DNA of 64,000 nucleotides, from NCBI RefSeq assembly GCF_002176815.1, contig NZ_CP021648.1:558001-622000 (forward strand), written 5' to 3'. Below are positions 9,251 to 59,630 of the stretch, piece after piece. The translations under genes were made by a program, and so were the position numbers. This DNA is from Acidovorax sp. T1 (lineage in GTDB: Bacteria > Pseudomonadota > Gammaproteobacteria > Burkholderiales > Burkholderiaceae_C). The stretch's first letter is position 1. Every line of letters begins with the position of its first letter. A model generated the notes under the pieces. That model was not told where the DNA came from, did no database searches, and worked only from the letters and a program-made list of their open reading frames with translations.

Positions 9251-9287
9251 CTCCAGCGCTTTCTGGTCAAGCGCTGGAAGCTATCAA
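9251..9287 (+). repeat. Dispersed palindromic repeat, copy 1
   Basis: CCAGCGCTTTCTGGTCAAGC followed by GCTGGAAGCTATCAA matches the window-wide repeat (AGCGCTT…AAGCGCT, then AGCTATCAA). It lies between metY and the CoA-binding gene and supplies the stop codon of the latter. Confidence 0.75.
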
Positions 9288-9799
9288 TAAGGGAGTTGCC
9301 GCAGCCGCTTGGCGGTGATCACGCCGGTGTTCACGCCCATCCAGCCCAGGCCGCCGAACAGCCGCGCGTGCTCAATTTTTACGCAGCGGTTCTGGATGGC
9401 CTGCAAGCCCGCGTCCTCGGCGCGCTGGGCGGCGTCCTCGTTGACCACGCCCAGCTGCAGCCACAGGCAGCTGGCGCCGATGGCGATGGCCTCCTCGGCC
9501 AGCGGAGGGATGTCTTCGCTTTTGCGAAAGCAGTCCACCATGTCGATGCGCCCGCCCTGGCGGGCGATGGCCTGCGAGGCGTCGGACAGGCTGGCGAAGC
9601 AGGTCTCGCCCAGAATGCTGCCGCCGCCCTGCGCCACCACTGGGTTCACCGGCACGATGCGGTAGCCGTGCGCCTGCATGTACTTGGCGGCAAAGAAACT
9701 GGGGCGGTGCCACTGCGGCGACAGGCCCACCACCGCAATGGTGCGGCAGCGGCCCAGCACGTCGCGCAGGGTGCTGATGGTGTCGGGGGTGCGGCTCAT
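9284..9799 (-). CDS. CoA-binding domain protein (YccU-like)
   Basis: A cytoplasmic protein of about 171 residues with a Rossmann-type CoA-binding fold. The N-terminal glycine motif is IAVVGLSPQWHRPSF, followed by VPVNPV and the typical end of the family, LQLGVVNEDAAQRAEDAGL and NRCVKIEH. No enzymatic function is established for this family. The frame is open to 9817; the ATG at 9799 (MSRTPD) is preferred because family members begin close to it. The stop codon falls inside a copy of the dispersed repeat. It lies downstream of the DsbD gene on the same strand, 67 bases away, so cotranscription is possible. Confidence 0.82.
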   Translation of the reverse strand: MSRTPDTISTLRDVLGRCRTIAVVGLSPQWHRPSFFAAKYMQAHGYRIVPVNPVVAQGGGSILGETCFASLSDASQAIARQGGRIDMVDCFRKSEDIPPLAEEAIAIGASCLWLQLGVVNEDAAQRAEDAGLQAIQNRCVKIEHARLFGGLGWMGVNTGVITAKRLRQLPY

Positions 9800-9866
9800 G
9801 CGGGGCAGTGTACGCAAGCGCGTCTGCCCCCGCCCGCCCCGCGCCGCAGGCCGGATGCGTTGGCGG

Positions 9867-12110
9867 CTACAGCGTCGCCAGCGCTTGCCGCACCTCGGCC
9901 ACGCTGAGGATCTCGGTCAGCACCACCGGCGCCTTGCCCGGGGCGTAGAGCACATACACCGGCACGCCGCTGCGGCCGAGCTGGGTGAGGGCGGCGGTGA
10001 TGGCGGGGTCGCGGCGCGTCCAGTCGGCGCGCAGCAGGGCCACCTTGCGGTCGGCAAAATCGGCCAGCACGTTGCTGTCGACCAGCGTGGTGCGCTTGTT
10101 GTATTGGCAGGTCACGCACCAGGCGGCGGTGAAATCCACAAACACCGGCTGGCCAGCGGCCATCAGCGCGGCCGCGCGGTCTGCGGACCAGGGCTGCCAG
10201 GCATTGGTGGCGGCGGGGGCGTCGGAGGCAATCGGGGTGGCGCTCTCCACCGGTTTGGTGACATTCTGGCCGATAGCGCTGATCAGCCAAGCGCCACCAG
10301 CTATCAAAACAGAAGCAATCACCACCCGGGTGCGGCCGCGCAGCGTGAGCGACCACACCAGCGCGCTGCCGGCCACCAGCAGCGCCAGCAGCGCGCCCGC
10401 GCCGTCGATGCCGCTTTGCTGGCCCAGCACCCACACCAGCCATACCACCGTGGCGAACATGGGAAACGCCATGGCGCGCCGGAAGGTGTCCATCCACGGG
10501 CCGGGCCGGGGCAGCCAGCCCACCACGGCGGGCACCAGGCTGGCAGCAAGGTAGGGCAGGGCCATGCCCAGGCCCAGCGCGGCAAACACGGCCAGCGCCT
10601 GCGCGGCGGGCATGTCCACGGCAAAGCCCAGCGAGGCACCCATGAACGGTGCCGTGCACGGCGAGGCAATGGCCACGGCCAGCACGCCCGACAAAAACGC
10701 ATCGCCCACCGGGTGGCGCGCCTGCAGCGTGGCCAGGCGCCCCGGCACGAACTGGCCAAACTCGAACAGACCCGCCAGGTTGAGCCCGATCAGCGTGAAC
10801 AGCCCGGCCAACAGCGCCACCACGGCGGGCGACTGCAGCTGAAACCCCCAGCCCAGCTGCTCACCCGCCGCGCGCAGGCCCAGCAGCAGGCCGCCCAGCG
10901 CCAGAAACGACAGCACCACACCTGCCGTGTAGGCGGCACCGGCCAGGCGCTGCGCGCGCCGGTTGCTGCCGTGCTGCGCAAAGCCCAGCACCTTGATGGC
11001 CAGCACCGGAAACACGCAGGGCATGAGGTTGAGCAGCAGGCCGCCCAGCAGCCCGCCGGCCAGCGCCGCCAGCAGCGTGCCCAGCGGGGCGCTGGTGGGG
11101 GCGGAAGGCGCGGACTGGGCCTGGTTGGCCGCCAGCGCCGCCGCGAGGGCGGGCGACACGCTGGCGCGCGGGGCGGCGGCCCAGGTGCCGCTCACGCTGG
11201 CCACGGTGCGCCAGGCGTGGGGCGCTTGCTGGTCTGCGGGGCGCTGGTCGAGTGCCAGCACCAGCGGCAGGCTGGCGGGCGTGTCGCCGCGCTGGGGCGA
11301 CAGCGGCAGGTCGGCGGTCCAGACATCGCCGTTCCAGGCCTGCGTCCAGTCCTTGCCGGGCACGGCGGCGGGGATCAGCACCTCGGGTGTTTCGGAAAAC
11401 AGGGCCAGCGTTTGGCCGCGTGCGGCAGCGGGCAGCCCGCGCACGGTCAGTTGCAGGCGCTCGCCCTGTACCCGCACCTGGCTGCCCTGGCCGTCGCCCG
11501 CCAGCGCCAGCGGCTGGTCGGCCTGGCTCTGGGCGAAGGCAGCGGCGTGCAGCGCGGTGGAGCCACGCACCGGCAGTTGCAGCGCAAATTCGCCTTCTTC
11601 GGGAATGCACTCGACGCGGCACACCAGCCAGGTGGCGCGCAGGCGCACAGCCAGCGTGCCGTTGCCTGCCAGCGGCGCCTGGAAGTCGGGGCCCACCTGC
11701 ACCGGCACGGGCAGCAGCACCTGGCCTTCGTAGCCATGGTTGGCCAGGGTGCCGATGCGGATGGTGTGGGGCACGGGCCAGGCGATGTCGCCAGCGGTCA
11801 GGCCGGCGGGCAGCGTCCAGGTCAGCTCGGTGGGCAGGCCCGAGTCGCCGGGGTTTTTCCAGTAGGTGTGCCACTCGGGCTGGTGGGTGATTTGCAGGCC
11901 CAGCCACAGCGGCTGGCCAGGGCCCACGCCCTCGGGCGCGTGCGCGACGAGTTCGGCGCGCACACGGGGCGTGGTGACCACGCTGCCGGCACTGGTGCTG
12001 GTGCTGGCCCCCGGTTTTTGGTTGAATTGGGCGCTGGCGCCCGTCCATGAAGCGCTAGCAGCTATTAAAAGCAGAGCGAAAAAGAGGCGCGAGAGCAGAC
12101 GATAAGACAT
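9867..12110 (-). CDS. Thiol:disulfide interchange protein, DsbD/ScsB type
   Basis: This inner-membrane protein passes electrons from cytoplasmic thioredoxin to periplasmic thiols. From the ATG at 12110 it has 747 residues: a signal peptide (LFFALLLIAASAS), a periplasmic N-domain with WLVCRVECIP (C164, C168), about eight membrane helices with the redox pair NLMPCVFPVL and IASPCTAPF, a last helix around residues 596-615, and a C-terminal thioredoxin fold with AAWCVTCQYNKR. This large N-domain is more like ScsB than E. coli DsbD. Two copies of the dispersed repeat lie in the coding sequence: a half copy in the signal peptide and a full copy coding for the last helix. Confidence 0.88.
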   Translation of the reverse strand: MSYRLLSRLFFALLLIAASASWTGASAQFNQKPGASTSTSAGSVVTTPRVRAELVAHAPEGVGPGQPLWLGLQITHQPEWHTYWKNPGDSGLPTELTWTLPAGLTAGDIAWPVPHTIRIGTLANHGYEGQVLLPVPVQVGPDFQAPLAGNGTLAVRLRATWLVCRVECIPEEGEFALQLPVRGSTALHAAAFAQSQADQPLALAGDGQGSQVRVQGERLQLTVRGLPAAARGQTLALFSETPEVLIPAAVPGKDWTQAWNGDVWTADLPLSPQRGDTPASLPLVLALDQRPADQQAPHAWRTVASVSGTWAAAPRASVSPALAAALAANQAQSAPSAPTSAPLGTLLAALAGGLLGGLLLNLMPCVFPVLAIKVLGFAQHGSNRRAQRLAGAAYTAGVVLSFLALGGLLLGLRAAGEQLGWGFQLQSPAVVALLAGLFTLIGLNLAGLFEFGQFVPGRLATLQARHPVGDAFLSGVLAVAIASPCTAPFMGASLGFAVDMPAAQALAVFAALGLGMALPYLAASLVPAVVGWLPRPGPWMDTFRRAMAFPMFATVVWLVWVLGQQSGIDGAGALLALLVAGSALVWSLTLRGRTRVVIASVLIAGGAWLISAIGQNVTKPVESATPIASDAPAATNAWQPWSADRAAALMAAGQPVFVDFTAAWCVTCQYNKRTTLVDSNVLADFADRKVALLRADWTRRDPAITAALTQLGRSGVPVYVLYAPGKAPVVLTEILSVAEVRQALATL
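10273..10313 (+). repeat. Dispersed palindromic repeat, copy 2, inside the DsbD gene
   Basis: ATAGCGCTGATCAGCCAAGC then GCCACCAGCTATCAAAAC. On the coding strand it is read in frame as SVLIAGGAWLISAI and forms a membrane helix (about residues 600-613). Confidence 0.65.
12049..12070 (+). repeat. Dispersed palindromic repeat, half copy in the DsbD signal peptide
   Basis: GAAGCGCTAGCAGCTATTAAAA is the right half of the repeat. It is read on the minus strand as the hydrophobic core LLIAASAS. Confidence 0.5.
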
Positions 12111-12223
12111 GGTTGCAGGGTGTGAGCGCTTGCGCAGCGGTTGGTTCCGGTGCTCCGGTGCGCTTTGGCAGGCCACGCCGGGCGTTGGGCACCCTGCGCG
12201 TGGCGCGGCCAGATGTGTCACCG

Positions 12224-15200
12224 CTATTGTGTCGCCAGGTTGAGCTGGGCCTGGGGCGTCCATTTGTCGTCCGCCCCGGTGGTTTTGGGTGCGGCCAGGA
12301 ACAGGCGCTCGTCGGGCAGCTTTTGCTCGGCCAGATAGGCCTTGACGGCCTGGCCGCGGTGCGTGGCCAGCTCGGTGGCCAGGTCTTCGGTGGCGGCGGG
12401 CAGGTGGGCCAGCAGCAGTGCCTCCATCTCGGGCACGGGCAGGTCCTTGGCCATGCCCACCAGGTTGCGCGGCTTGGGCATGTCGGCGCGGCGGTACACC
12501 TCCTTGAGCAGAGCCGGGTATTCGGCGGCCTGCACAGGGGTGGTGTCGGCAGGGGTTGCACGGCGCTTGGCGGCGCGCACCAGCTCTTGCAGGCGCTCGC
12601 GCTGGATGGCGTCGCGCTCGCGCTCCAGACTGGCCGTGCCGGTCACGGTGATCTTGAGCGCGGGCCGCTCGGTCAGCGCCTTGGCCACCTTGTCCAGGCC
12701 CTGCCGGGCCTCGGGCGTGAGGGTGGCGCTGCCCGGGGCAAAGGCCACGGTGCTCAGTTCGTCACCGCCGCCAAAAGCGCGGGCCAGCAGGCTGAACGGG
12801 GCGGTAATGGCCTTGCCGATCAGGTTGACGATGATCTTGAAGATGACGGGGCCGATGCGAAATTGCGGGTCGTTCAGCGAGCCGCTGATGGGCAGGTCGA
12901 GGTCGATCACGCCTCGGCTGTCAGACAGCAGGGCCACGGCCAGCTTCACCGGCAGGCTGTTGGGGGCGCCCTCCACGGGGTCGCCGAACGTGAGCTGGTT
13001 GAGCACCAGCTTGTTGCTGGCCGTGAGCTGGCCGTTGGGCAGCACCTTGTAAGAGACATCCATGCTGAGCTTGCCGCGCTCGATGCCGTGGCCCGCGTAT
13101 TTCACCGAATAGGGCGTGAGCGGCGGCAATTCGAGGTCGCGCACCTTGCCCTGGATATCGAGCGCCAGCGGCTTGGCCAGCGGGTTGAGCTTGCCGGTGA
13201 TTTCCAGCGACGCCGAGCCTTCGGCGCGGCCGCGCAGTTCCAGGTCGGCCAGCACGGGCTCGCCGCCCGGCGGCTGGGACGAGAACGCGCTGAGCTTGCC
13301 GGTCAGCTCGGTCAGGTCGGCCGAATAGTTGGGCTTGATGAAGTAGTCCGAGAACAGCACCTTGCCGTTGACCAGGCTCACCGGGCCGAACACCACCACC
13401 GGCGCCAGCGGGTCGGGCGGCAGGGGGGCGCTGGCCGATGCGGTGGCGGTGGCTGTGTTTGCGGGCGTGTCGGGGGGCGTATCAGGGGCAGCGGCCACGG
13501 GGGCGGGTGGCGCGGGCGTGGCGGTGGGCGCCTGGTTGTTGACCTCGGCCGGGCTTTTGGCGATGTCGCTCAGGTTGATCCGGCCGTTTTCGTTGATGGC
13601 GATGCGCGCATAAAAGTCGGCCAGGCTGGTTTCCTTCACCTCCACGCGGGGGGCGGTGTTGGGCGCCAGGGCCACGGAGAGGCCGCGCAGGCCCAGGCTC
13701 TTCCAGGCCAGCAGTTCCTCGCCCACCTGCTCGGCGGTCTTGGGCGTGGCGGCGGCCGTGCTGTTGGCGCGCAGCGCGTCGATGGCGGCATCGCCGTTCA
13801 GGCGCAGCGTGGTCCCGCGCGGGCTTTGGGACATCGCCACCTGGCCGCGAAAGCCCACGTCGGCGCGCAGCAGTTCGATGGCGAAGCGGTCTGCCAGGTA
13901 GCCGTCGAGGGCGTGCAGGGGCAGGCGGCTGGCCTCCAGGCGGCCTTGCGTGGCAAAGGGCTGGGGCGTGAGCGTGCCCCGGTAGTCCAGCTTGCCGGCG
14001 TTGCCCCCGAATTCGAGTTTGCCGGCGTTGCCCCGGCGTGCAGCCACCTGGGCCGACAGGTGGAACGCTTCGGGCTTGCGGCCGTCCGGGGCCAGGTTGC
14101 GGGCCTGCAGGCTCAGCGCCGACAGGTTCAGCGCCACGGGGCGGGGCTGGGCGCGGTCGGCAAAGGCCACGCTGCCCTGGTCCACGTTCAGCTCGCCCAG
14201 GCGCACGCGCCAGGCGGGCGCTGCCGCCGTGGTGCTGCTGGCGGGCTTGGTGGCAGGCGTGGTGGCGGGTGCGGCCTTGAGCCAGCGCTCGAACATCCAG
14301 CGGCCGTCGGCGGCGCGCTCCACCGTGGCCTGGGGCTGGGTGATGCTCAGGCGCGCTATGTCCACGGTGCGGGTGTCCAGATTCAGCTTCAGGCCGTCCA
14401 GGCCCAGCTTGCCCACGCTGGCCAGCGCGGTCTTGCCCTGTTGCAGCGCCAGTTGCTCCAGCGCCAGGGGGCCTGCGGAGAGGGTGATACCCGTGGCGCC
14501 TGCCTTGGCGGCGTCGCCAGCGGGGGCTTGCCACTGCACGGCCATCTCGCCGCTGACCTGGCCGGTCAGCGCGGGCTCCAGCGTCTGCGCCAGGTAGGGC
14601 GCGGCCAGTTGCAGGGGCAGGGCCTGGGCCGACAGGTTCACCTCGGCGGCGCGGTCGGTGGCCTGGCCCTTGAAGGCCAGGGTGTTGCCCTGCGGGCTTT
14701 GCGTGCTGCCCCGCAGGCTCTGCGTGCTGCTTTGCACGCCCAGCGCGCCCGTGAAGGTGAGCGGCGCCTTGAACGGAAACGCCACATCGGCCACATCCAG
14801 CGTGAAGTCGGTGGCCTGCAGCGCGGCGGCGGGCCGGGTGCTCTGGTCGGTCCAGCGCAGCTGGCCGTGGCGCACGGCGGCCTGCGCCACGGCCACGGTC
14901 CAGCCGGGGGGGGCGGCGGGTGGAGTTGCGCTGCTGGCGGGGGGCTGGGCGGCTGGTGCGGCAGGCGGTGTGGGTTTGGCGGTGGGGGATGCCGCCGGTG
15001 CGGCCAGTTGTGCGAGGTTGATCTCGCCTTTGGCATTGCGCGTGGCCGTCACGATGGGCGATGCCAGCTCCACGCGGGCCAGGCGCACCACCTGGTCGAG
15101 CGGTCGCACATCGGCCATGTCCACCGTGAGGCGCTCGTAGGACAGCAGGGGTTGCTGGTGGCGATCGGTGATCTGCACCTTGCGCGTCTGCACCTGGCCC

Positions 15201-17009: not shown

Positions 17010-17032
17010 TGGGGTTTGGGTGTTTTGGGTGC

Positions 17033-17084
17033 TTTTGGCCTCTAGCGCTTATCCAGCCAGCGCAAGCAGCTCTTGTTTTGATAG
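17033..17084 (+). repeat. Dispersed palindromic repeat, copy 3
   Basis: TCTAGCGCTTATCCAGCCAG then CGCAAGCAGCTCTTGTTTTG and ATAG lie between two convergent genes. The right half of the palindrome is degenerate. Confidence 0.65.
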
Positions 17085-17091
17085 TGGCTGA

Positions 17092-21380: not shown

Positions 21381-22211
21381 ATGCCTTTTTTTATCGACAC
21401 GCATTGCCACCTGGACGCCGCCGAGTTCGCCGCCGACCGCGACGCCGTGCGCCAGCAGGCCGCTGCCGCGGGCGTGGCGCATTGCGTGATTCCGGCGGTG
21501 GAGCGCGCCAACTGGGACGCCGTGCGCCAGCTGGCGCACCGCCATGGCGACAGCTACGCCCTGGGCATTCACCCGCTGTACACCGCGCGGGCGGCCGATG
21601 CCGACCTGGCGCTGCTGGCCCAGGCGCTGGAGCAGCACCGCCACGACCCGCGCCTGGTGGCCATCGGCGAAATCGGGCTGGATTTTTTTGCCGATGGCCT
21701 TGACCCCGCGCGGCAGGAGCAGTTCTACCGCGCGCAGCTGCAGCTGGCGCGCCGCTTCGATCTGCCGGTGATCCTGCATGTGCGCCGCTCGGCCGACAAG
21801 CTGCTCAAGGGCCTGCGCGACACAGCCGTGCCTGGCGGCATCGCCCACGCCTTCAATGGCAGCCTGCAGCAGGCCCAGGCGTTCATCGCGCTCGGCTTCA
21901 AGCTGGGGTTTGGCGGCGCGGTGACTTATGACCGGGCGCTGCAGTTGCGCCGGCTGGCGGCCGCGCTGCCCGAGTCGGCCCTGGTGCTGGAAACCGACGC
22001 GCCCGATATCCCGCCGCACTGGCTTTACGCCACTGCGGCGCAGCGCGCTGCCGGGCAGCCGCAGGGGCGCAACGCCCCGGCCGAGCTGCCGCGCATCGCC
22101 GCGGTGGTGGCGGGCCTGCGCGGCCTGCCGTTGGCGGCACTGGCGCGCGGCACCACCGCCAATGCCTGCGCGGCGCTGCCGCGGCTGGCCGGGCGGGTGC
22201 AGGAAGTTTGA
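21381..22211 (+). CDS. TatD-family metal-dependent DNase
   Basis: 276 residues. TatD amidohydrolase fold with metal ligands FIDTHCHLD at the start, AIGEIGLDFF, LPVILHVRRS, a His in GGIAHAFNGS and LETDAPDIPP. These enzymes are 3'-5' exonucleases or deoxyribonucleases of the cytoplasm. The start is ATG 21381 (MPFFIDTH), as is usual for the family. It is followed by a copy of the dispersed repeat and then a DNA glycosylase gene, so DNA repair genes are neighbours. Confidence 0.92.
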   Translation: MPFFIDTHCHLDAAEFAADRDAVRQQAAAAGVAHCVIPAVERANWDAVRQLAHRHGDSYALGIHPLYTARAADADLALLAQALEQHRHDPRLVAIGEIGLDFFADGLDPARQEQFYRAQLQLARRFDLPVILHVRRSADKLLKGLRDTAVPGGIAHAFNGSLQQAQAFIALGFKLGFGGAVTYDRALQLRRLAAALPESALVLETDAPDIPPHWLYATAAQRAAGQPQGRNAPAELPRIAAVVAGLRGLPLAALARGTTANACAALPRLAGRVQEV

Positions 22212-22219
22212 GGTGTTTT

Positions 22220-22269
22220 TGGCCGCTGGCGCTTTCCAGATAAGCGCTGGTAGCTATTTATTTGATAGT
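22220..22269 (+). repeat. Dispersed palindromic repeat, copy 4
   Basis: GGCCGCTGGCGCTTTCCAGA then TAAGCGCTGGTAGCTATTTA and TTTGATAG. It lies in the gap between tatD and the glycosylase gene. Confidence 0.75.
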
Positions 22270-22308
22270 GACCGAGGTGTGTGTTGGATTTCAGGCCAGA
22301 ATGGGCGC

Positions 22309-29089: not shown

Positions 29090-29241
29090 GGCCCAGCGTG
29101 CCCTGGGCGTGCCGCCGATAATGGCCCCATGCCATCCGGCGACTGTCCTTGTATGCGGGCATCCGCTCGGTGGGCGGTGCAGGCCCTTGGGGGAGCGCGC
29201 TGCCGGTTTTTGAATGCGTTTGCGTGAGTTTTAAGTAAAAA

Positions 29242-29290
29242 GTGCCTACAGCCCTATCCCAGCCATCGCAAGCAGCTAGAAAAAATGTAG
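29242..29290 (+). repeat. Dispersed palindromic repeat, degenerate copy 5, at the start of an EamA gene
   Basis: GTGCCTACAGCCCTATCCCA then GCCATCGCAAGCAGCTAGAA resembles copy 3 (CCAGCCAGCGCAAGCAGCT) with the first arm decayed. It codes for the first 16 residues of the exporter gene if the GTG start is right. Confidence 0.45.
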
Positions 29291-30159
29291 CAACCGGCCT
29301 CTTGCTGGCGCTGTTCGGCGCCATCGCCTTCAGCGGCAAGGCCATCATCGTCAAGCTGGCCTACCGCCATGGCGTGGACGCGGTCACGCTCATCATGTAC
29401 CGCATGCTGTTCGCGCTGCCCATTTTTGCCGTCATGGCGTGGTGGGCCAGCCGGGGCAAGCCGCCTTTGTTGCGCCGCGACTGGCTGGGCGTGGCGGGCC
29501 TGGGCGTCACCGGCTACTACCTGGCCAGTTTTCTCGACTTTGCCGGGCTGGCCTACATCAGCGCCAGCCTGGAGCGGCTCATCCTGTACCTCAACCCCAC
29601 GCTGGTGATGATGCTCGGCTGGCTGCTGTATGGCCGCCGCATCCGCTGGGGCCAGGCGCTGGGCATGGCCATCAGCTACTGCGGCGTGGTGCTGGTGTTT
29701 GGCCTGGAGGCCCAACTGCAGGGCGCCGATGCGGCCTGGGGCACGCTGCTGGTGTTCTTGAGCGCCGTGAGCTATGCCATCTACCTTGTTTACAGCGGCG
29801 AGATGGTGCAGCGCATCGGCGCGCTGCGGCTGGTGGGCCTGGCCACCACGGTGGCCTGCCTGTGCTGCCTGCTGCAGTTCGTGCTGCTGCGGCCCCTGAG
29901 CGCTGCGGTGGTGGCGCCGGAGGTGATTTGGCTGTCGGTGCTCAACGCCACGCTGTGCACGGCGGCGCCGGTGCTGATGGTGATGATGGCCATCGAGCGC
30001 ATTGGCGCCGGCATGACTGCGCAGACCGGCATGGTGGGCCCGCTGTCCACCATCTTCATGGGGGTGTGGATTCTGGGCGAGCCCTTCACGCTGTGGGTGG
30101 CTGCGGGCACCGCGCTGGTGATGGCCGGCATCTTTGTGTTCACGCGCATGTCGCGCTGA
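29242..30159 (+). CDS. EamA/DMT-family transporter
   Basis: 305 residues with ten membrane helices in two EamA halves (the first begins LLLALFGAIAFSGKAIIVKL; the second begins WGTLLVFLSAVSYAIYLV). Members export or exchange small metabolites across the inner membrane; substrate unknown. The GTG at 29242 is the first start in frame but has no clear ribosome site. The first 17 residues come from a repeat copy, so the true start may differ. Confidence 0.82.
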   Translation: MPTALSQPSQAARKNVATGLLLALFGAIAFSGKAIIVKLAYRHGVDAVTLIMYRMLFALPIFAVMAWWASRGKPPLLRRDWLGVAGLGVTGYYLASFLDFAGLAYISASLERLILYLNPTLVMMLGWLLYGRRIRWGQALGMAISYCGVVLVFGLEAQLQGADAAWGTLLVFLSAVSYAIYLVYSGEMVQRIGALRLVGLATTVACLCCLLQFVLLRPLSAAVVAPEVIWLSVLNATLCTAAPVLMVMMAIERIGAGMTAQTGMVGPLSTIFMGVWILGEPFTLWVAAGTALVMAGIFVFTRMSR

Positions 30160-30248: not shown

Positions 30249-31079
30249 ATGGATATGGGTATCGCGGGCAAGTGGGCGCTGGTGTGTGGCGCCAGCAAAG
30301 GGTTGGGGTTTGGCTGCGCGCAGGCGCTGGTGCGCGAAGGGGTGAACGTGGTCATCAACGCGCGCAATGCCGATGCGCTGCAGTTGGCCGCTTCCAAATT
30401 AATAGCTGTTAGCGCAGACGCAGCAAGCGCAAGAGGTCAAAATGGCATAAAACCCATGGTACTGGCGGTGCCTGCCGACATCACCACCCCCGAAGGCCGG
30501 GCCGCCGTGTTTGCGGTGCCCGGCGGGCCGGGGCGCGACTTCGACATCGTGGTGACCAACGCGGGCGGACCGCCTACCGGCGACTTTCGCGACTGGGACC
30601 GCGACGCCTGGATCAAGGCGGTGGACGCCAACATGCTCACGCCCATCGAGCTCATCAAGGCCACGGTGGACGGCATGGCCGCGCGGGGCTTTGGCCGCAT
30701 CGTCAACATCACCTCCAGCGCGGTGAAGGCGCCGATTGACATCCTGGGCCTGTCCAATGGCGCGCGCAGCGGGCTCACCGGCTTTGTCGCCGGCGCCGCG
30801 CGCAGCAAGCTGGCGGCGCAGGGCGTGACCCTGAACAACCTGCTGCCCGGCAAGTTCGACACCGACCGCCTCGCCACCACGCTGGGCGCTGCGGCCACCA
30901 AGTCCGGCAAAAGCCTGGACGACGTGCGCCGCGCCCAGCAGGCGCAGATTCCGGCTGGCCGATTTGGCACCCCCGAAGAATTCGGCGCCATCTGCGCATT
31001 TTTGTGCAGCGTGCATGCGGGTTACATGACGGGCCAGAACCTGCTGGCCGACGGCGGCGCCTACCCTGGCACGTTCTGA
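30249..31079 (+). CDS. SDR-family oxidoreductase with atypical active site and repeat-coded insert
   Basis: 276 residues. The Rossmann motif is CGASKGLGFGCA (residues 13-24) and VVTNAGGPP is the NAG motif. The catalytic Ser is in NITSSAVK, but the expected YxxxK is replaced by LSNGARSGLTG, a pattern known from a 3-oxoacyl-ACP-reductase-like SDR branch lacking the full tetrad. Residues 50-66 (KLIAVSADAASARGQNG) are coded by a copy of the dispersed repeat in frame and enlarge the loop after the second strand. The start is ATG 30249. Substrate unknown. Confidence 0.85.
   Translation: MDMGIAGKWALVCGASKGLGFGCAQALVREGVNVVINARNADALQLAASKLIAVSADAASARGQNGIKPMVLAVPADITTPEGRAAVFAVPGGPGRDFDIVVTNAGGPPTGDFRDWDRDAWIKAVDANMLTPIELIKATVDGMAARGFGRIVNITSSAVKAPIDILGLSNGARSGLTGFVAGAARSKLAAQGVTLNNLLPGKFDTDRLATTLGAAATKSGKSLDDVRRAQQAQIPAGRFGTPEEFGAICAFLCSVHAGYMTGQNLLADGGAYPGTF
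30395..30445 (-). repeat. Dispersed palindromic repeat, copy 6, in frame in an SDR gene
   Basis: AAATTAATAGCTGTTAGCGC then AGACGCAGCAAGCGCAAGAG and GTCAAAATG: the repeat in reverse orientation. It keeps the reading frame and adds about 17 residues. Confidence 0.72.
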
Positions 31080-31098
31080 CAGCGTTGGGGGTGCTTTG

Positions 31099-31150
31099 TT
31101 TTTGATAGCTGCTTGCGCTTGCCCACAAAGCGCTGGCGGCTGTTTTTATT
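31099..31150 (-). repeat. Dispersed palindromic repeat, copy 7
   Basis: TTTTTGATAGCTGCTTGCGC then TTGCCCACAAAGCGCTGGCG lies between two convergent genes, in reverse orientation. Confidence 0.75.
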
Positions 31151-31159
31151 CAAAACCCT

Positions 31160-32152: not shown

Positions 32153-33136
32153 ATGAGCCTTGCCGTCCAGATCCGCCAGCATGGCGGCCCCGAAGAACTC
32201 CACCTGGTTGACGTGGCCGTGGGGGAGCCCGGTCCGGGCGAAATCCGCATCCGCCACCATGCCATCGGCCTGAACTTCATCGACGTGTACCACCGCACGG
32301 GCCTGTACCCTTTGAGCATGCCCGCCACCATCGGCATGGAGGCCGCCGGCGTGGTCGAAGCCGTGGGCGAGGGCGTCACCCACCTGAAGGTGGGCGACCG
32401 CGCCGCCTATGCCAGCCAGCCCCCCGGCGCCTATTGCGAAGTGCGCGTGATGCCCGCCCAATGCGTGTGCCAGCTGCCCGACGCCATCAGCTTCGAGACC
32501 GGCGCGGCCATGATGCTCAAGGGCCTGACGGCGCAATACCTGCTGAAAAAGACGCTGCCCGTGCAAGGCCTGCAGGCTGGTGACTTTGTGCTGTTCCATG
32601 CCGCCGCCGGTGGCGTGGGCCTGATCGCCTGCCAGTGGGCCCGCGCCCTGGGCCTGCAGCTGATTGCCACCGCCGGCACCGATGCCAAGTGCCAGCTGGC
32701 GCTGGCCAATGGCGCGGCCCACGCCATCAATTACGCCACCGAAGACTTTGCCGCGCGCGTGAAAGAGATCACGGGTGGCAAGGGCGTGAAGGTGGTGTAC
32801 GACTCGGTGGGCAAGGACACCTGGGACAAGTCGCTAGCGTGCCTGCGGCCGTTTGGCCTGATGGCCAGCTTTGGCAATGCCTCCGGCCCGGTGCCGCCGT
32901 TCGCGCCGGGCTCGCTGGGCGCCAAGGGCTCGCTCTACGTCACGCGCCAGACGCTGTTCACCCACATCGCCACGCGCGAAGGCACGCAGGCCATGGCCGA
33001 CGACCTGTTCGCCGTGGTGGCCAGTGGCCAGGTCAAGATCCACATCGACCAGCGCTACCCGCTGGCCCAAGTGCAGCAGGCGCACCGTGACCTGGAAGCG
33101 CGCAAGACCACCGGCTCCACCATCCTCACGCTGTGA
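32153..33136 (+). CDS. qor: NADPH:quinone oxidoreductase (zeta-crystallin type MDR)
   Basis: 327 residues. The family is a zinc-free medium-chain dehydrogenase: NFIDVYHRTGLYP and IGMEAAGVVEAVGEGV in the catalytic domain, then the NADPH motif FHAAAGGVGLIACQWA (about residues 143-160) and VYDSVGKDT. It reduces quinones by one electron using NADPH in the cytoplasm. CAGGAGA precedes the ATG at 32153. The stop overlaps the GTG start of the Nudix gene. Confidence 0.9.
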   Translation: MSLAVQIRQHGGPEELHLVDVAVGEPGPGEIRIRHHAIGLNFIDVYHRTGLYPLSMPATIGMEAAGVVEAVGEGVTHLKVGDRAAYASQPPGAYCEVRVMPAQCVCQLPDAISFETGAAMMLKGLTAQYLLKKTLPVQGLQAGDFVLFHAAAGGVGLIACQWARALGLQLIATAGTDAKCQLALANGAAHAINYATEDFAARVKEITGGKGVKVVYDSVGKDTWDKSLACLRPFGLMASFGNASGPVPPFAPGSLGAKGSLYVTRQTLFTHIATREGTQAMADDLFAVVASGQVKIHIDQRYPLAQVQQAHRDLEARKTTGSTILTL

Positions 33137-33963
33137 CGCGGGCCGCCGCAGCATCTGCCACCGACTGGCTGGCCGCAGCCCGTGCGGCCGCCCGCCAGCC
33201 GCCCGTGCAAGCGCGCCAGCCGCTGTGGGTGGCGGGGCAGGCCGTGGGTTCGGTGGCGGCTGGGGTTTTGAGTCCAATCGACCTCTGGCGCTTATCTGAT
33301 AAGCGCTACCAGCTACTGAATCAGGAGCAATCGGGCGGACCGGTGTGGCACCTCGATGTGCCGCCCGACGCGGTCACACCCGCGCTGAACCTGCTGGCGC
33401 AGGCCCTGCGCGCCCAGGGCCAGTGCGGCCCCTGGCGCGACGAGCAACTGGCGGTGTGCAACGCCCAGGGCGAGCGGTTGGGCACCATCGAGCGCGGCGC
33501 CGTGCGCGTGCTGGGCATCGCCACGCGGGCCGTGCACCTGGTGGGCCGGGCGCCCGATGGCCGCATGTGGGTGCAGCAGCGCTCCCGTACCAAGCCCAAC
33601 AACCCGGGCATGTGGGACACGCTGATGGGCGGCATGGTCTCGGCCGCCGACACCCTGACGCAGGCGCTGGCGCGCGAAACCTGGGAGGAGGCGGGCTTGC
33701 GCTTGCCGCAGTTGCACGGCCCTGAACACGGCGGGCAGGTGGATTTCAGCCGCCCCAGCCGCGAGGGCGGCGGCGTGGGTTACATGGTTGAGCGCATCGA
33801 CTGGTTTCGCTGCACCGTGCCCGGCGGGCTGGAACCCCGCAACCAGGATGGCGAGGTGGAGCGCTTCGAGCTGTGGAGCCTGGCGCAGGTGCAAGAACGC
33901 ATGGCCGCGGGCGACTTCACGCTGGAGGCCGCGCTGGTGCTGGGCGCTTGCTTGGGTCTTTGA
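33133..33963 (+). CDS. DUF4743/Nudix hydrolase with repeat-coded segment
   Basis: 276 residues from GTG 33133, which overlaps the qor stop (GTGA). A DUF4743 N-terminal domain leads to a Nudix domain of the isopentenyl-diphosphate isomerase/thiamine-related type: GGMVSAADTLTQALARETWE then EAGL, the Nudix box with Asp in place of the first Glu. The metal-binding REx2EE part is intact. Such enzymes hydrolyse nucleoside or thiamine diphosphates; the substrate is not known here. Residues 50-62 (DLWRLSDKRYQLL) come from a dispersed repeat read in frame. Confidence 0.85.
   Translation: MTRAAAASATDWLAAARAAARQPPVQARQPLWVAGQAVGSVAAGVLSPIDLWRLSDKRYQLLNQEQSGGPVWHLDVPPDAVTPALNLLAQALRAQGQCGPWRDEQLAVCNAQGERLGTIERGAVRVLGIATRAVHLVGRAPDGRMWVQQRSRTKPNNPGMWDTLMGGMVSAADTLTQALARETWEEAGLRLPQLHGPEHGGQVDFSRPSREGGGVGYMVERIDWFRCTVPGGLEPRNQDGEVERFELWSLAQVQERMAAGDFTLEAALVLGACLGL
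33281..33318 (+). repeat. Dispersed palindromic repeat, copy 8, in frame in the Nudix gene
   Basis: ACCTCTGGCGCTTATCTGAT then AAGCGCTACCAGCTACTG has both arms of the palindrome complete and is open in the reading frame. Confidence 0.8.
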
Positions 33964-39693: not shown

Positions 39694-39758
39694 GGCATTT
39701 TGCTATTGAATAAGTAGCTGCATGCGCTTACAGGATAAGCGCTAGAGGCCAAAATGCC
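39694..39758 (-). repeat. Dispersed palindromic repeat, copy 9, with outer inverted arms
   Basis: The core is TGCGCTTACAGGATAAGCGC followed by TAGAGG (reverse orientation, with TAGCTG before it). GGCATTTTG at the left and CAAAATGCC at the right form a further inverted pair around the whole unit. It is the most complete copy in the window and lies between convergent genes. Confidence 0.85.
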
Positions 39759-39788
39759 TTGAAGTATTGGGTGGGAGCCAGGGGCCGC

Positions 39789-47365: not shown

Positions 47366-47552
47366 TCAGGCTGCTGCGGGCGTCTGCGCGAATACGGGTG
47401 CATCCACATTGCCGCCGGTGAGCGCCACGCTCGCTGGTGCTTTGCATGGGCAGGCCCCAGCGGTATTGCGGCGTGGGCGGGAAGTCGCGGCACACCACTG
47501 GCGCGGCGGCTTCGATGTTGGCCAGGGTGGGAAGGAAGAGATATGGTGCCAA
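47366..47552 (-). pseudogene. Relic of a threonine/serine dehydratase: both ends kept, centre deleted
   Basis: From about 47552 the minus strand reads LPTLANIEAAAPVVCRDFPP then TPQYRWGLPMQ, the N-terminus of PLP-dependent threonine dehydratases. At about 47435 this stops, and in a shifted frame SVALTGGNVDAPVFAQTPAA and a stop follow, which matches the C-terminus of the same family. About 270 residues, including the PLP lysine, are missing. It is the second internally deleted gene in this cluster. The start codon is not clear; a repeat copy lies directly upstream. Confidence 0.68.
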
Positions 47553-47555
47553 TTC

Positions 47556-47605
47556 CTGTTTTGATAGCTGCTAACGCTTACTGGGTAAGCGCTACAGGCT
47601 GTTTT
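47556..47605 (-). repeat. Dispersed palindromic repeat, copy 10
   Basis: CTGTTTTGATAGCTGCTAAC then GCTTACTGGGTAAGCGCTAC and AGG: reverse orientation, both arms intact. It lies between the dehydratase relic and the GST gene. Confidence 0.82.
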
Positions 47606-47646
47606 GAAGGGCGGTGGTGCATGGCGGGGCCGCGAAAGGGAAGGAA

Positions 47647-51164: not shown

Positions 51165-51192
51165 GGCGCTGAAAAGAAAAAGGTAGGCTGTT

Positions 51193-51228
51193 ACTGTAGA
51201 GGCAATTGCAATACAGTGCCGGTACAGT
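51193..51228. promoter_or_regulatory. Likely MocR operator between lysE and the regulator gene
   Basis: ACTGTA at 51193-51198 is inverted relative to TACAGT at 51212-51217, and TACAGT is repeated at 51223-51228, 11 bases further. Such repeated half sites near the divergent promoters are usual for MocR regulators. Confidence 0.5.
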
Positions 51229-51301
51229 TAATCTGACAATCACGCCATCTGTAGTGGTGATTGTTTCAGCACAGTCGGCATTTCTGCACAAGGCCCTTCC
51301 C

Positions 51302-52762
51302 ATGCTTACCCGTTCCAGCAGCCACACACTGACCGAACAGTTGGCCGAGCGTTTTGCCGAGCGCATCCGCTCGCGGCTGCTGCCTGCGGGCACACGCCTG
51401 CCGTCGGTGCGCGAATGCGCGCGCCAGCAGGGCGTGAGCCCCTACACCGTGGTGGCGGCCTACGACCAGTTGCAGGCCCAGGGCTTGGTGGAGGCGCGCA
51501 GTCAACGTGGTTTCTTTGTACGCGATTTTGTGCAAAATGGGGCGCAAGCGCAGGAGGGGCAAGCGCAATCAGCTATACAAAATATAGCAAATGTAGCGCT
51601 CAGGACGGCCACGGGCACCGCGCCTTTGCCATCGGGGTCGCGCATCAACGCCACGGCGCTGATCCGGGGCATGTTCCACCAGGCATCCACCCATCCGCAG
51701 CCGGGCGCCGGCGTGTTTCCGTCGGATTGGCTGGAGGCGGGGTTCATGGCGGCAGCGGTGCGCAAGGTGACCGGCAGCCGCGCGCTGCAAGACGGCTCGC
51801 TGCAGTATGGCGACCCCATGGGCGACCCCGGCCTGCGCCAGGTGCTGGCGCGCAAGCTGGCGGGCTTGGGCATTCCCGCGCGGGCCGGTCAGATCATGAC
51901 CACGGTGGGCGCCACGCACGCGCTCGACATCGTCAGCCGCACCCTGCTGCGGCCCGGCGACCCTGTCATGGTGGAGGAGCCCGGCTGGTCGGTGGAGTTT
52001 GCGCGCCTTGATGCCCTGGGCATGCGCATCCTGCCCGTGCCGCGCCACGCCGATGGCCCCGATCTGGCCGTGATGGCGCGCTATTGCGAGGCCCACGCCC
52101 CCAAGTTGTTCGTCAGCGTGAGCGTGTTCCACAACCCCACGGGTTATTGCCTGTCGCCCGGCAGTGCGCACCAGGTGCTGCAGCTGGCACAGCAGCACAA
52201 CTTTCATGTGGTGGAAGACGACACCTACAGCCACATCGCGCCCGAGCACGCCACGCGGCTCACGGTGCTCGACGGCCTGCGGCGCACCATTTACGTGAGC
52301 GGTTTCGCCAAGATCCTGGCGCCCAACTGGCGCGTGGGCTACCTGGCGGCGCCGCCCGATCTGGTGGAGCGCCTGCTTGACACCAAGCTGCTGTCCACCC
52401 TGACGACGCCGTCCATCCTGGAAAAGGCGCTGGCTCTGTGCATCGACCAAGGGCAGTTGCGCCGCCATGCCGCGCGCATGCGCCTGCGCCTGGCCCAGGC
52501 ACGCGCACGCAGCGTGCAGCTGGCGCTGGACGCCGGCTGCAGCTTTGCGGCCGAGCCGGCGGGGCTGTTTGGCTGGGTGGAGACGGGTGTGGACACTGAC
52601 GTGCTGGCCCAGCGCATGCTGGACGAGGGCTACCTGCTGGCGCCCGGGGCGTTGTTCCACGCCAGCCGGCAACCCTGCACGCTGATGCGCATCAACTTCA
52701 CCACCACGCAGGACGCGGCCTTCTGGCGCGTGTTCCAGCGGGTGGTGGCGCAGAGCCGGTAG
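51302..52762 (+). CDS. MocR-type regulator (GntR winged helix fused to aminotransferase)
   Basis: 486 residues from ATG 51302. Winged helix: TLTEQLAERFAERIRSRLLP then AGTRLPSVRECARQQGVSPY (about residues 9-60). Aminotransferase-like domain: VGATHALDIVSRTLLRPGDP, SVFHNPTGYCLS, EDDTYSHIAPEH, and the PLP lysine in VSGFAKILAPNWRVGYL. MocR proteins sense PLP or amino acids and control transport or synthesis genes. Here the target is probably the divergent lysE-eamA pair and itself. The linker (about residues 81-96, AQAQEGQAQSAIQNIA) is coded by a repeat-like sequence. Confidence 0.9.
   Translation: MLTRSSSHTLTEQLAERFAERIRSRLLPAGTRLPSVRECARQQGVSPYTVVAAYDQLQAQGLVEARSQRGFFVRDFVQNGAQAQEGQAQSAIQNIANVALRTATGTAPLPSGSRINATALIRGMFHQASTHPQPGAGVFPSDWLEAGFMAAAVRKVTGSRALQDGSLQYGDPMGDPGLRQVLARKLAGLGIPARAGQIMTTVGATHALDIVSRTLLRPGDPVMVEEPGWSVEFARLDALGMRILPVPRHADGPDLAVMARYCEAHAPKLFVSVSVFHNPTGYCLSPGSAHQVLQLAQQHNFHVVEDDTYSHIAPEHATRLTVLDGLRRTIYVSGFAKILAPNWRVGYLAAPPDLVERLLDTKLLSTLTTPSILEKALALCIDQGQLRRHAARMRLRLAQARARSVQLALDAGCSFAAEPAGLFGWVETGVDTDVLAQRMLDEGYLLAPGALFHASRQPCTLMRINFTTTQDAAFWRVFQRVVAQSR
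51543..51589 (+). repeat. Dispersed repeat, degenerate copy 11, in the linker of the MocR gene
   Basis: GCGCAAGCGCAGGAGGGGCA then AGCGCAATCAGCTATACAAA and ATATAGC keeps the AGCGC…AGCTAT order with a decayed first arm. It is in frame and codes for a Gln/Ala-rich linker. Confidence 0.45.
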
Positions 52763-52797
52763 CCACGGTGCGCTGCACTGCAACGGGCCGCGCAGGT

Positions 52798-54036: not shown

Positions 54037-54111
54037 GGGCGGTGAAGCGATAAGACAGCGGGGCCGGATCCTGGCGACGGGGTGGACCCCCATCGCGCGA
54101 GCAGGTCGTCC

Positions 54112-55335: not shown

Positions 55336-55355
55336 GACGGACTCCGTTCAGACCT

Positions 55356-57338: not shown

Positions 57339-57363
57339 GGCTTACCTCGGTTCTTCTCGTCCA

Positions 57364-58260
57364 TCACGCCTGGGCACGTTGCACGCGCAGCGCACTGTTG
57401 ATGGCTCCGCTGAGCTTTCTGGCGTATTCGGGGTCAGTGGCGTAACCGGCCTTCTGCAGTTCTGCCGCATAGGCCACGGCCGAGCCGGTCCGGGCGGTGG
57501 CCTGGGCTTTTTCGTAGCGCGGGCTGTCGGTGATCAGGCGGGCGTAGTCGCGAAACGAGTCTTCGTACGAGTCGTAGGCGCGGAACCTTGCGGTCACCTT
57601 CTGGGCCTTGCCGTTGATGTATTCGGTGGTGGTGATCTCGGCCACCTTGCCGGTCCAGCCCTTGCCGGCCTTGATGCCGAACAGGTTGAACGAGTTGGAG
57701 CCGTCCTTGTGTTTGATCTCGCTCTTGCCCCAGCCGGTTTCGTGCCCCGCCTGGCCCAGCATGAAGCTGGCCGGAATGCCGCTGTCTTGCGCCACGCGCT
57801 CGGCGGTGGCGCTGAGCGACTGCACGAAGCCGTCGCGCCCCTTGGGCACCGGGCCCGTGGCCACGGGGGCTGCGCCGCGCGAGGTCACGCCGGGCAGGCT
57901 GAGAGTGGACGGCACGGAGATGCTGGTGTCGGCACCGCCCATCTGGCGCGAAAGCTGGCGCGCAATGGCTTCCGACAGCCCGCCGGGCACGCCCGACATG
58001 TTGACCGACAGCTGCTGGTCCAGCAGGTCGGTGCCCAGGTTGCCCTGGGCGCCGTCCATCAGGCCGGATTTCATGGTGGCTTCGCGCATGCTCTTGATCA
58101 GCTCGCGCATGAACAGCGATTCAAACTGTTTGGCGGCTTCCTTGGCGGCCTGGGGGCTGTTTTGCCCGGCCTCGTATTTCAGGGCGTTGAGCGATCGTGC
58201 ATCGGCCGCCAGCGCATTGGAGGCACTGGAGGTTGTGGAAGTGGGCAGGGTCAGGGCCAT
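57364..58260 (-). CDS. flgJ: Flagellar rod-assembly protein and muramidase FlgJ
   Basis: 298 residues with two domains. The N-terminal rod-capping domain includes QFESLFMRELIKSMREATMK and DLLDQQLSVNMSGVPGGLSE. The C-terminal glucosaminidase (about residues 150-298) holds FMLGQAGHETGWGKSEIKHK, with the catalytic Glu, then FNLFGIKAGKGW and YAARLITDSPRY-like repeats. It opens peptidoglycan for the rod in the periplasm. The two-domain form is normal for beta- and gammaproteobacteria. Confidence 0.94.
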   Translation of the reverse strand: MALTLPTSTTSSASNALAADARSLNALKYEAGQNSPQAAKEAAKQFESLFMRELIKSMREATMKSGLMDGAQGNLGTDLLDQQLSVNMSGVPGGLSEAIARQLSRQMGGADTSISVPSTLSLPGVTSRGAAPVATGPVPKGRDGFVQSLSATAERVAQDSGIPASFMLGQAGHETGWGKSEIKHKDGSNSFNLFGIKAGKGWTGKVAEITTTEYINGKAQKVTARFRAYDSYEDSFRDYARLITDSPRYEKAQATARTGSAVAYAAELQKAGYATDPEYARKLSGAINSALRVQRAQA

Positions 58261-58314
58261 GGTCGCTTCACTCCTTGTGCAGGTCCCGCTGGGCGCTGGT
58301 TGGGCAAGCCATGG

Positions 58315-59457
58315 TCAGATCACTTCCAGCTCGGCGTTCAGGGCGCCGGCCGCCTTGATGGCCTGCAAGATGGCCAGCAGGTCCTGCGGCGTCGCGCCCA
58401 GGGAGTTCAGGGCCTTAACCACATCGGCCAGCTGGGGCGAGGCCGGCATCTGGATGATGTTGCCTGCCTCCTTGTTGATGGTGATGTCGCTCTTTTGCGC
58501 CACGACGGTCACGCCCTGCGACAGGGGGTTGGGCTGGCTGATGACGGGCGTGGAACTGATGGTGATCGACAGGTTGCCGTGCGCGATGGCACAGGGGCCC
58601 AGGGTGACCGACTGGTTGAGCACCACCGATCCTGTGCGGGCATTGATGACCACCTTGGCCGCGGGGGTGGAGTCGGGCAGATGCAGTTCTTCCAGCTCTG
58701 CGATGAAGTTCACGCGTTTGCCCGGGTCTTGCGGTGCGGTCACCTGTACCGTGCGCCCGTCCAGGGCCGTGGCCGTGCCCTGGCCTTGGCGGGCATTGAT
58801 GGCTTGCGCCACCTTGCGCGCGGTCTGGAAATCCACGGCATTCAGGCCCAGGGTGATGGTGTCGCCATCGTGCAGCGGCGTAGGCACGGAGCGCTCGACC
58901 TGCGCGCCCTGCGGGATGCGCCCCGCGCTTAGATGGTTGATCTGCACCTTGCTGCCACCGGCCGATGCGCCGGCGCCGCCCACAATCACGTTGCCCTGCG
59001 CCAGCGCGTAAATTTCGCCGTCCGCGCCCCGCAGCGGCGCGGCGATCAGCGTGCCGCCCTTGAGGGACTTGGCGTTGCCGATGGACGAGACGTTGATGTC
59101 GATCAGCTGCCCCGGCTGCGCAAAGGCCGGCAACTGGGCTGTGATGACCACGGTGGCCACGTTCTTGAGTTGCGGCGCGGTGGCGCCCGGTGGCAGGCTG
59201 ATGCCCATCTGCTGCAAATAGTTGGCCATCGCCTGGGCCGTGAACGGCATCTGCGTGGACTGGTCGCCCGTGCCATCGAGCCCCACCACCAGGCCATAGC
59301 CCGAAAGCTGGTTGCTGCGCACGCCCTGCACCGCCGCCACCTCCTTGAGACGCAAGGCATGGGCTGGCGCCGCCAGCCCCGTGGCAAACAGGGCTAGCGC
59401 CAGCCACAGCGCGCGTGTCTGCAGCCATGCAAAGCGAGGGAGGTGCAAGGTCTTCAT
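58315..59457 (-). CDS. flgI: Flagellar P-ring protein FlgI
   Basis: 380 residues from ATG 59457 (MKTLHLP). A signal peptide ends at about residue 34 (LFATGLAAPAHA-LRLKEVAA). Mature FlgI motifs: QLSGYGLVVGLDGTGDQSTQ, NVATVVITAQLPAFAQPGQ, GVTVVAQKSDITINKEAGN and the C-terminus ADVVKALNSLGATPQDLLAI. It forms the ring around the rod in the peptidoglycan. Its upstream neighbour is the unknown secreted protein and a repeat copy rather than flgH directly. Confidence 0.95.
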   Translation of the reverse strand: MKTLHLPRFAWLQTRALWLALALFATGLAAPAHALRLKEVAAVQGVRSNQLSGYGLVVGLDGTGDQSTQMPFTAQAMANYLQQMGISLPPGATAPQLKNVATVVITAQLPAFAQPGQLIDINVSSIGNAKSLKGGTLIAAPLRGADGEIYALAQGNVIVGGAGASAGGSKVQINHLSAGRIPQGAQVERSVPTPLHDGDTITLGLNAVDFQTARKVAQAINARQGQGTATALDGRTVQVTAPQDPGKRVNFIAELEELHLPDSTPAAKVVINARTGSVVLNQSVTLGPCAIAHGNLSITISSTPVISQPNPLSQGVTVVAQKSDITINKEAGNIIQMPASPQLADVVKALNSLGATPQDLLAILQAIKAAGALNAELEVI

Positions 59458-59585
59458 GACACCCATTGTGGCGTGCCATCCGGCGGGCAAAGAGGGGAAA
59501 AGAGCGTGCTTCTGCCGCCTTATTACCGGTGTTCGCCCCCTGGCTTTCCCGTGCTGCAGTATCCGCAAAAATATGATTCAAATAT

Positions 59586-59630
59586 GGCTCTAGCGCTTTT
59601 CTGTAAAGCGCTGATAGCTATCATTTTTGA
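59586..59630 (+). repeat. Dispersed palindromic repeat, copy 12, inside the flg operon
   Basis: GGCTCTAGCGCTTTTCTGTA then AAGCGCTGATAGCTATCATT lies between the unknown gene and flgI. Both arms of the hairpin (AGCGCTTT / AAAGCGCT) are complete. Confidence 0.82.

Follow-up and report, generated by a model that had tools for sequence, protein, structure and literature searches.

Within a 64,000-nucleotide stretch of Acidovorax sp. T1 (positions 558,001 to 622,000 of contig NZ_CP021648.1, assembly GCF_002176815.1; hereafter the window), thirteen copies of a palindromic sequence lie between genes as well as inside reading frames, which raises the question of what this motif is and how it comes to stand in coding sequence. 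A first-pass annotation of the window had suspected a small mobile unit and named the Rickettsia palindromic elements as its nearest case. Our analyses point instead to a long DNA recognition sequence of the chromosome, of about 66 bp with about 700 sites, whose copies would arise and persist in place through substitutions under selection or biased recombination, and not through insertion of a mobile unit. We assign a probability of roughly 0.4 to the joint reading, an in-place recognition signal that most likely marks self DNA; the wider claim, that the motif is an in-place DNA signal, is probable.

The motif in the window and across the chromosome

A covariance model of 68 positions was built from a seed of 31 copies (27 of 30 loci fetched by one exact 13-mer, plus four references from the window) and run on the window unfiltered. 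The 24 rows returned comprise 13 non-overlapping motif copies (best E 1.9e-20, weakest 2e-8), nine readings of these palindromes on the opposite strand and two weak matches (E 0.52 and 0.56). All 13 copies listed by the first-pass annotation were recovered at the same places, each with E <= 2e-8, and both orientations occur among them, as it had described. Six copies were already in the model seed (17.0, 22.2, 33.3 and 39.7 kb, together with L004 at 31.1 kb and L005 at 47.5 kb), and the other seven (9.2, 10.3, 12.0, 29.2, 30.4, 51.5 and 59.6 kb) are independent matches with E values from 1.8e-17 to 2e-8. In the list below and throughout, G numbers stand for compared genomes, L numbers for fetched stretches, and ORF for open reading frame.

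9232..9299, plus strand: motif copy where two leftward ORFs adjoin, reaching over the called ends of both; 53.4 bits, E 7.5e-15; copy in place in G155, none in G153.
10252..10319, plus strand: motif copy inside a DsbD-type ORF, between the transmembrane and thioredoxin-like domains; 51.5 bits; G155 without match, length change -3 bp.
12013..12080, plus strand: second motif copy of this DsbD-type ORF (9867-12263), in its N-terminal part; 61.6 bits; same-site motif in G155 and G085.
17021..17088, plus strand: motif copy filling a convergent intergenic region; 54.9 bits; seed member.
22205..22272, plus strand: motif copy that follows a rightward ORF and overlaps its stop; 56.1 bits; seed member; sub-threshold match to Pfam PF06231.
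29227..29294, plus strand: motif copy in the region where an EamA-type transporter ORF starts (29242-30159; start uncertain; Pfam EamA from residue 18); 33.5 bits, E 2e-8.
30387..30454, minus strand: motif copy inside a short-chain dehydrogenase ORF, at about residues 77-99 (Pfam adh_short residues 38-239, reading from 30159); 36.9 bits.
31090..31157, minus strand: motif copy filling a convergent intergenic region; 70.8 bits, the best of the window; seed member (L004).
33264..33331, plus strand: motif copy within a NUDIX ORF (33133-33963), in its N-terminal part; 63.2 bits; seed member; same-length copy in G167.
39699..39766, minus strand: convergent intergenic motif copy carrying the outer GGCATTTTG/CAAAATGCC pair; 58.9 bits; seed member.
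47549..47616, minus strand: intergenic motif copy; 52.5 bits; seed member (L005).
51524..51591, plus strand: motif copy at about residues 107-129 of a MocR-type regulator (ORF 51206-52762), in the linker; 41.1 bits.
59569..59641, plus strand: intergenic motif copy; 39.1 bits; copy near the same place in G155.

The DsbD-type ORF (minus strand) matches Pfam DsbD_TM at 400-610 and Thioredoxin_7 at 688-775, and its 12-kb copy looks, by eye, as if it overlaps the signal peptide in T1, G155 and G085. In the MocR-type ORF, Pfam GntR (42-105) is followed by Aminotran_1_2 (186-502); the 51.5-kb copy is present in G167 and gave no match in eight other relatives, where this stretch differs by -6 to +34 bp.

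Conservation drops to background on both sides of a unit of about 66 bp, and the consensus over the sampled copies is GATTTTGAGTCAAATTGGCCTCTAGCGCTTATCCAGCAAGCGCTAGCAGCTATTAAATTAATAGCAAT. Its firmest positions are the central dyad GCGCTT-N7-AAGCGC and the box AGCTAT. The core palindrome AGCGCTT/AAGCGCT of the first-pass annotation is therefore retained, but as the centre of a longer unit and with a loop of 7 bases in the consensus. The outer inverted pair GGCATTTTG/CAAAATGCC is present in the 39.7-kb copy but is not general, the matching left positions being mostly A (about 77% in a 30-copy profile). Motif copies average 44% GC in a window of 66% GC.

There are 39 exact matches to the 13-mer GCAGCTATCAAAA in the 4.42-Mb genome and none to its reversed control. 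At E <= 1e-3 the model found 138 copies in 824 kb, extrapolating to 740 per chromosome, and 60 copies in 380 kb from two contiguous blocks chosen blind to matches, extrapolating to 697; stretches L102-L120 were chosen non-randomly. The motif thus exceeds expectation clearly, at about 700 copies per chromosome. We dropped overlapping opposite-strand readings and matches of at most 50 bp (98 to 78 in a 444-kb sample; 138 kept overall), and also the copy in L101. Profiles over the 138 copies comprise the 130 that are exactly 68 long, and the motif holds 67-69 bits, where 13.5 bits suffice to find 700 sites.

Rfam gave no match at gathering score in the window, and no name for the motif was found in the open-access literature searched, in agreement with the first-pass annotation. 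A survey from 2017 lists GCTTAT(N)5AAGCG as a potential novel motif of Acidovorax ebreus TPSY, with 114 copies, of which 107 are intergenic, 5 in genes and 2 overlapping (44 convergent, 4 divergent, 59 co-directional; PMC5217627). This pair has the same core and the same placement bias as our consensus; its entry in the survey gives the core pair only, with no unit, family or allele comparison. The Polaromonas pair in the table of that survey, ATAGCT(N)22CAAAAG, shares one box but appears not to fit our consensus. The BRE repeats are likewise found in Comamonadaceae and other betaproteobacteria and partly in genes, but were set apart by description, since they are about 90 bp long (75-91), have a mean of 69% GC in Bordetella and are often tandem (PMC3110155), whereas the motif has 68 positions and 44% GC and is mostly single.

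Copies inside genes and at aligned loci

Genes were called over the 444-kb sample with a home-made caller that trims gene starts and called only one of the 13 window copies inside genes; the 14 of 78 copies that it places in genes are therefore a lower bound. The earlier estimate that about half of the copies are intragenic roughly holds in the window (5 of 13, perhaps 6) but not in this larger sample. The 14 copies lie in genes for a methylcrotonyl-CoA-type carboxylase subunit, a ComEC-type protein, TruB, an HIBCH-type hydrolase, a DNA methylase (two copies), a DnaE-type polymerase (which we take to be DnaE2), a DUF1156 protein, MutS, an MmeI-type protein (two copies), a YihE-type kinase, a nucleotidyltransferase and DsbD; window genes also holding copies encode the MocR-type regulator, the NUDIX protein, the dehydrogenase and the N-terminus of the DsbD ORF. 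Ten of the 14 are oriented opposite to their gene, and seven of those stand in one phase, reading like LIAxSAxxxSARGQ. The DUF1156 and MmeI-type genes at L116:1682-17331 are partly unmatched in six relatives, yet carry intragenic motif copies.

Rickettsia palindromic elements are insertions of about 150 bp that stand in frame within functional genes (PMC10969869), an in-frame position that the motif shares. Insertion of a whole unit would add about 22 residues to a protein. Comparison of seven in-gene copies with solved homologues revealed no insertion of this size: the extra residues number 0 in MutS (homologues 1-2 longer), the methylcrotonyl-CoA-type carboxylase and the DnaE-type polymerase, 0-1 in the hydrolase and 4 in TruB, with the last two proteins considered further below. 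The Rickettsia analogy drawn earlier consequently fails at this point. Moreover, MutS (L116:11962), TruB (L111:6799) and the HIBCH-type hydrolase (L111:10781) have identical lengths in the motif-free genome G153 and in motif-bearing relatives. In several genes the motif has thus originated in place, and as far as sequence comparison goes, the intragenic copies seem to overwrite existing sequence instead of adding to it. The repeat classes considered here do not readily explain a 66-bp sequence that appears in genes but does not lengthen them by 66 bp.

Loci with and without the motif were compared at 10 distinct places (51 comparisons, dropped if a flank gap exceeded 60 bp or the site gap 400 bp), an allele being called absent when it gave no model match, so that decayed copies count as absent. 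The length change was 0 in MutS, TruB and the hydrolase, -3 in DsbD and -6/-7 in the gap that we take to be guaB-guaA; intergenic changes elsewhere ranged from -53 to +132. In the guaB-guaA gap the motif is present in T1 and G155; G159 and G167 carry other sequence there, 67 bp with an ordinary hairpin and T-run, and the gap in G151, G165 and G153 is about 720 bp longer. No clean insertion of the unit was found in nine of the ten loci, which leaves no empty site from which to read a target duplication. Clean presence or absence of a unit, as a small mobile unit would leave at aligned loci, was largely not seen; the locus at 9.2 kb is the only one to change by about one unit.

Key positions of the motif are conserved. 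In 37 ungapped ortholog pairs from nine loci, positions with a consensus of at least 95% differ in 7.6% of cases, compared to 19-24% in the flanks and 25-27% at poorly conserved motif positions, the 7.6% being biased because both members of a pair had to be model matches. Near-identical copies were absent: the best pair of 127 copies (three integron cassette copies left out) is 81% identical, where column shuffles reach 77% on average and up to 82%, and linkage is chiefly between adjacent columns. None of 12 candidate stem pairs exceeded independence at p < 0.05 in 74 of 78 copies (non-68-long copies and those near stretch ends left out), so that a hairpin function, tested by covariation, was not detected. 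With no covariation in the stem and the best pair within the shuffle range, neither RNA structure nor recent copying is therefore seen.

These comparisons bear on a repeat of the repetitive extragenic palindromic (REP) type or the miniature inverted-repeat transposable element (MITE) type, old and by now mostly immobile, with intergenic copies that go back to insertion and intragenic copies that go back to replacement. Such a repeat would account for the sharp unit of about 66 bp, the palindromic core and the hundreds of copies, and a small excess likeness among copies (see below) is in its favour. It is contradicted by the constant gene length, by the nine of ten loci without clean insertion and by the lack of near-identical copies. 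Also in its favour is a copy that G155 alone has among the relatives compared: the convergent gap around it is 37-53 bp longer than in T1, G163 and G159, though shorter than in G158 and G085, which are also without the copy.

Placement, spacing and partner genes

Apart from the 14 copies in genes, the 78 copies of the 444-kb sample fall into co-directional (37), convergent (21) and divergent (3) gaps, with 3 at stretch ends, where gap length predicts 39.8, 8.1 and 13.1 for the three kinds of gap (chi-square p = 7e-7). The 51.5-kb copy, counted here among the three 'divergent' ones, actually lies inside the MocR-type ORF, indicating that the caller undercounts genes. Many intergenic copies span the entire gap and begin at or on the stop codon.

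This placement in co-directional and convergent gaps is a REP trait, as REPs are described as located between co-directional and convergent genes (PMC3733652), and it counts in favour of a REP- or MITE-like repeat. Like the motif, REPs are palindromic, abundant and near gene ends, and they are sometimes found in genes including truB and dnaE2 (PMC3733652), the TruB gene and the DnaE-type gene being among those with motif copies. Unlike REPs, the motif has no GTAG/CGTC tag, its consensus stem flanks being GGCCTCT and AGCAGCTAT, and it has no covariation, no whole-unit length gain in the tested genes and no link to REP-associated tyrosine transposases (RAYT). RAYT-type matches (E <= 1e-3) were present in 132 of 150 family genomes, 43 of them over the curated cut-off, with or without the motif, whose 13-mer occurs in 51 of the 150. 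The two top RAYT scores belong to the motif-rich genomes G015 and G120, the next six to genomes without the 13-mer, and G095 has the motif without a RAYT-type match. No motif copy was found in eight fetched RAYT loci (L083-L090). The RAYT gene of T1 itself (L101:2100-2804) is flanked by GGGGTCAGACTCCCATTAAT copies, with one weak motif copy over its 3' end, and the AATTGGGGTCAGACTCCCATTAAT repeat at L101:2017-2066 and about 2886-2912 is probably its own cognate repeat. RAYT was therefore rejected as partner of the motif, and no partner transposase, for which the first-pass annotation had proposed to look, was found. Given also that the motif is almost absent from other contigs, we regard a REP- or MITE-like repeat as improbable.

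Enrichment after stop codons and between convergent genes would also suit an RNA element at gene 3' ends, acting as terminator or mRNA stabiliser, and in the guaB-guaA gap the motif occupies the place of the ordinary hairpin with T-run of G159 and G167. However, the stem does not covary, no T-run directly follows the hairpin on either consensus strand (by eye), and copies lie within long open genes and in both orientations relative to genes, which makes this explanation very unlikely.

With respect to GC skew, 72 of 138 copies are on the G-rich strand. This lack of bias means that there is no polar signal, and a replication-oriented signal was ruled out. Spacing is irregular, with a variance-to-mean ratio of 1.4 over 19 stretches and a coefficient of variation of 0.93 for the intervals, and pairs under 500 bp apart are weakly lacking (p = 0.017). 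Even spacing had seemed present in the first 19 stretches, some of which were chosen near known matches; contiguous stretches did not have it (variance/mean 1.4). Helical phasing of A/T tracts, apparent by eye, was not significant (p = 0.19; strongest period 7.9).

Distribution and candidate role in recognition of self DNA

The exact 13-mer occurs in 51 of the 150 family genomes, with up to 85 copies, and its control matched in none. A scan of 229 genomes of the class gave no more than two 13-mers in any genome outside the family, similar to the reversed control. In 15 chosen genomes the model found at least 148-150 matches in ten, 106 in one, three weak ones in one and none in three, and 22 strict-pattern loci belong to Acidovorax, Paenacidovorax, Giesbergeria, Simplicispira, Comamonas composti, Extensimonas and one unplaced assembly. 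Of 47 genomes of the genus, 41 carry the 13-mer 3-53 times and six carry it 0-2 times; G153, which is 13-mer-poor, gave no model match in 88 kb. Presence by species is all-or-none. In T1, all 39 13-mers and the best 150 model matches are on contig C1, and contigs C2-C4 have one copy in 255.5 of 318.6 kb, where about 40 are expected (P about 1e-16). This depletion fits scarcity in acquired DNA, which C2-C4 would represent. The first-pass annotation had already taken the repeat as native to the chromosome, which agrees with these data, but its argument from the low-GC stretch at 1-8400 of the window (53% versus 68% GC for the remainder) is weak alone, with 1.3 copies expected and a probability of 0.27 for none. 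Zero copies in the 40 kb of L167-L168 (C1:2360001-2400000), where about six are expected, may likewise mark acquired DNA. An exact 21-mer of the motif is present in six viral contigs, and the consensus matches one of 50,697 phage records.

Hundreds of sites nearly confined to the main chromosome, in both orientations, originating in place, with conserved key positions and without covariation, are also what a binding site for a chromosome-organising or nucleoid protein would look like, with the sites aiding folding or segregation and unrelated to uptake. It is the next best reading after an uptake signal, albeit unlikely: the irregular spacing with its weak lack of close pairs, the absence of strand bias, an information content far above what location needs and the six relatives in the genus almost without the motif all speak against it.

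Part of the annotated family DUF1010 (Pfam PF06231) can be explained as translated motif. In the sampled stretches, where the motif makes up 1.1% of bases, 24 of 29 PF06231 places coincide at least partly with a motif copy, each time on its strand, and the match takes in roughly the first 22 of the 66 family positions. Of 95 places in all, only 8 pass the family cut-off, and at the loose limit used 11 of 14 control genomes also match, none over the cut-off. An apparent chromosomal integron of T1 (L161:2628-7000, about 2.243-2.247 Mb on C1) has a recombinase at L161:2628-3662 (Pfam Phage_integrase), presumably the integron integrase, and an array of several DUF1010 ORFs, six 43-nt attC-like repeats and three motif copies. 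On the Escherichia coli plasmid pP11b, a motif copy lies in the DUF1010 cassette (L215:1711-2001) that is flanked by dfrA12 and aadA2, and 1,751 plasmid records, mostly from enterobacteria, match the motif query; among the matches listed, 34 of 40 are in a gene annotated as DUF1010. The copy in the dfrA12-aadA2 cassette hints at a motif-bearing, Comamonadaceae-like chromosome as the source of this cassette, and the motif may be a tag of gene cassettes with a past in chromosomes of this kind.

As an in-place recognition sequence, the motif would be read as double-stranded DNA by a putative reader protein, and selection or drive would lie behind its copies, which would accumulate after stop codons and between convergent genes because such places tolerate change. 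Its most likely use would be marking self DNA, as in the uptake sequences of Neisseriaceae and Pasteurellaceae. We favour this use because selective natural transformation is known in close relatives: Acidovorax temperans, Acidovorax facilis and Verminephrobacter eiseniae are naturally transformable, and in V. eiseniae type IV pili are required and DNA binding is selective (PMC4212676). The text on selective binding in that report names no recognition sequence. DNA uptake sequences of the two families are described as preferring the core genome and permissive places and as missing from genes acquired recently (PMC2397512). They resemble the motif in having many copies, some in genes, that arise without mobile-unit insertion, in being favoured in the core genome and poor in acquired genes, and in forming inverted pairs near gene ends (PMC2397512). 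In keeping with this, the motif has hundreds of chromosomal copies (about 700 by extrapolation) in both orientations (72 of 138 on the G-rich strand) and no unit insertion in MutS, TruB and the hydrolase, its intergenic sites being less clear. However, uptake sequences are about 10-12 bp long (PMC2397512) and the motif about 66 bp with 67-69 bits. Because it lacks such a short core, we do not file it as an uptake sequence; the uptake role taken by itself is a guess, to which we would give somewhat less than an even chance.

Several observations weigh against a recognition signal that arose in place. The chief objection is length: 67-69 bits are five times the need, and to evolve them in place hundreds of times is demanding. 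Mean nearest-neighbour identity is 71.6% versus 69.4% in shuffles (standard deviation 0.2), and long-range linkage is 73.0 versus 67.9 (standard deviation 0.7), an excess likeness that could be explained by old copying or uneven copy quality. YihE has 10 extra residues relative to its solved homologues and the MurU-type enzyme 8, with 4 more just beyond. The 9.2-kb locus changes by nearly one unit (-64, -42), the intergenic sites compared are few, and both the model-match requirement for ortholog pairs and the counting of decayed copies as absent bear on the comparisons above. Contigs C2-C4 may simply be recent DNA. Finally, only DNA from the same species transformed A. temperans (PMC4212676), which a signal shared by the genus does not explain alone.

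In its most far-reaching form, the proposal is that Comamonadaceae have in this motif their missing self-DNA signal, a sequence of about 66 bp for uptake or discrimination, several times the length of known ones, spread by molecular drive over about 700 chromosomal sites, overwriting gaps behind genes and tolerant stretches within genes such as mutS and truB, and lost wholesale in a few species; in this full form we consider it doubtful. If the motif is a recognition signal, it would provide a handle on an orphan observation, the selective DNA uptake of Acidovorax and Verminephrobacter, and it would predict a reader protein that could be found by comparing species that have the motif with species that lack it. 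It would also be a case of a signal reshaping proteins.

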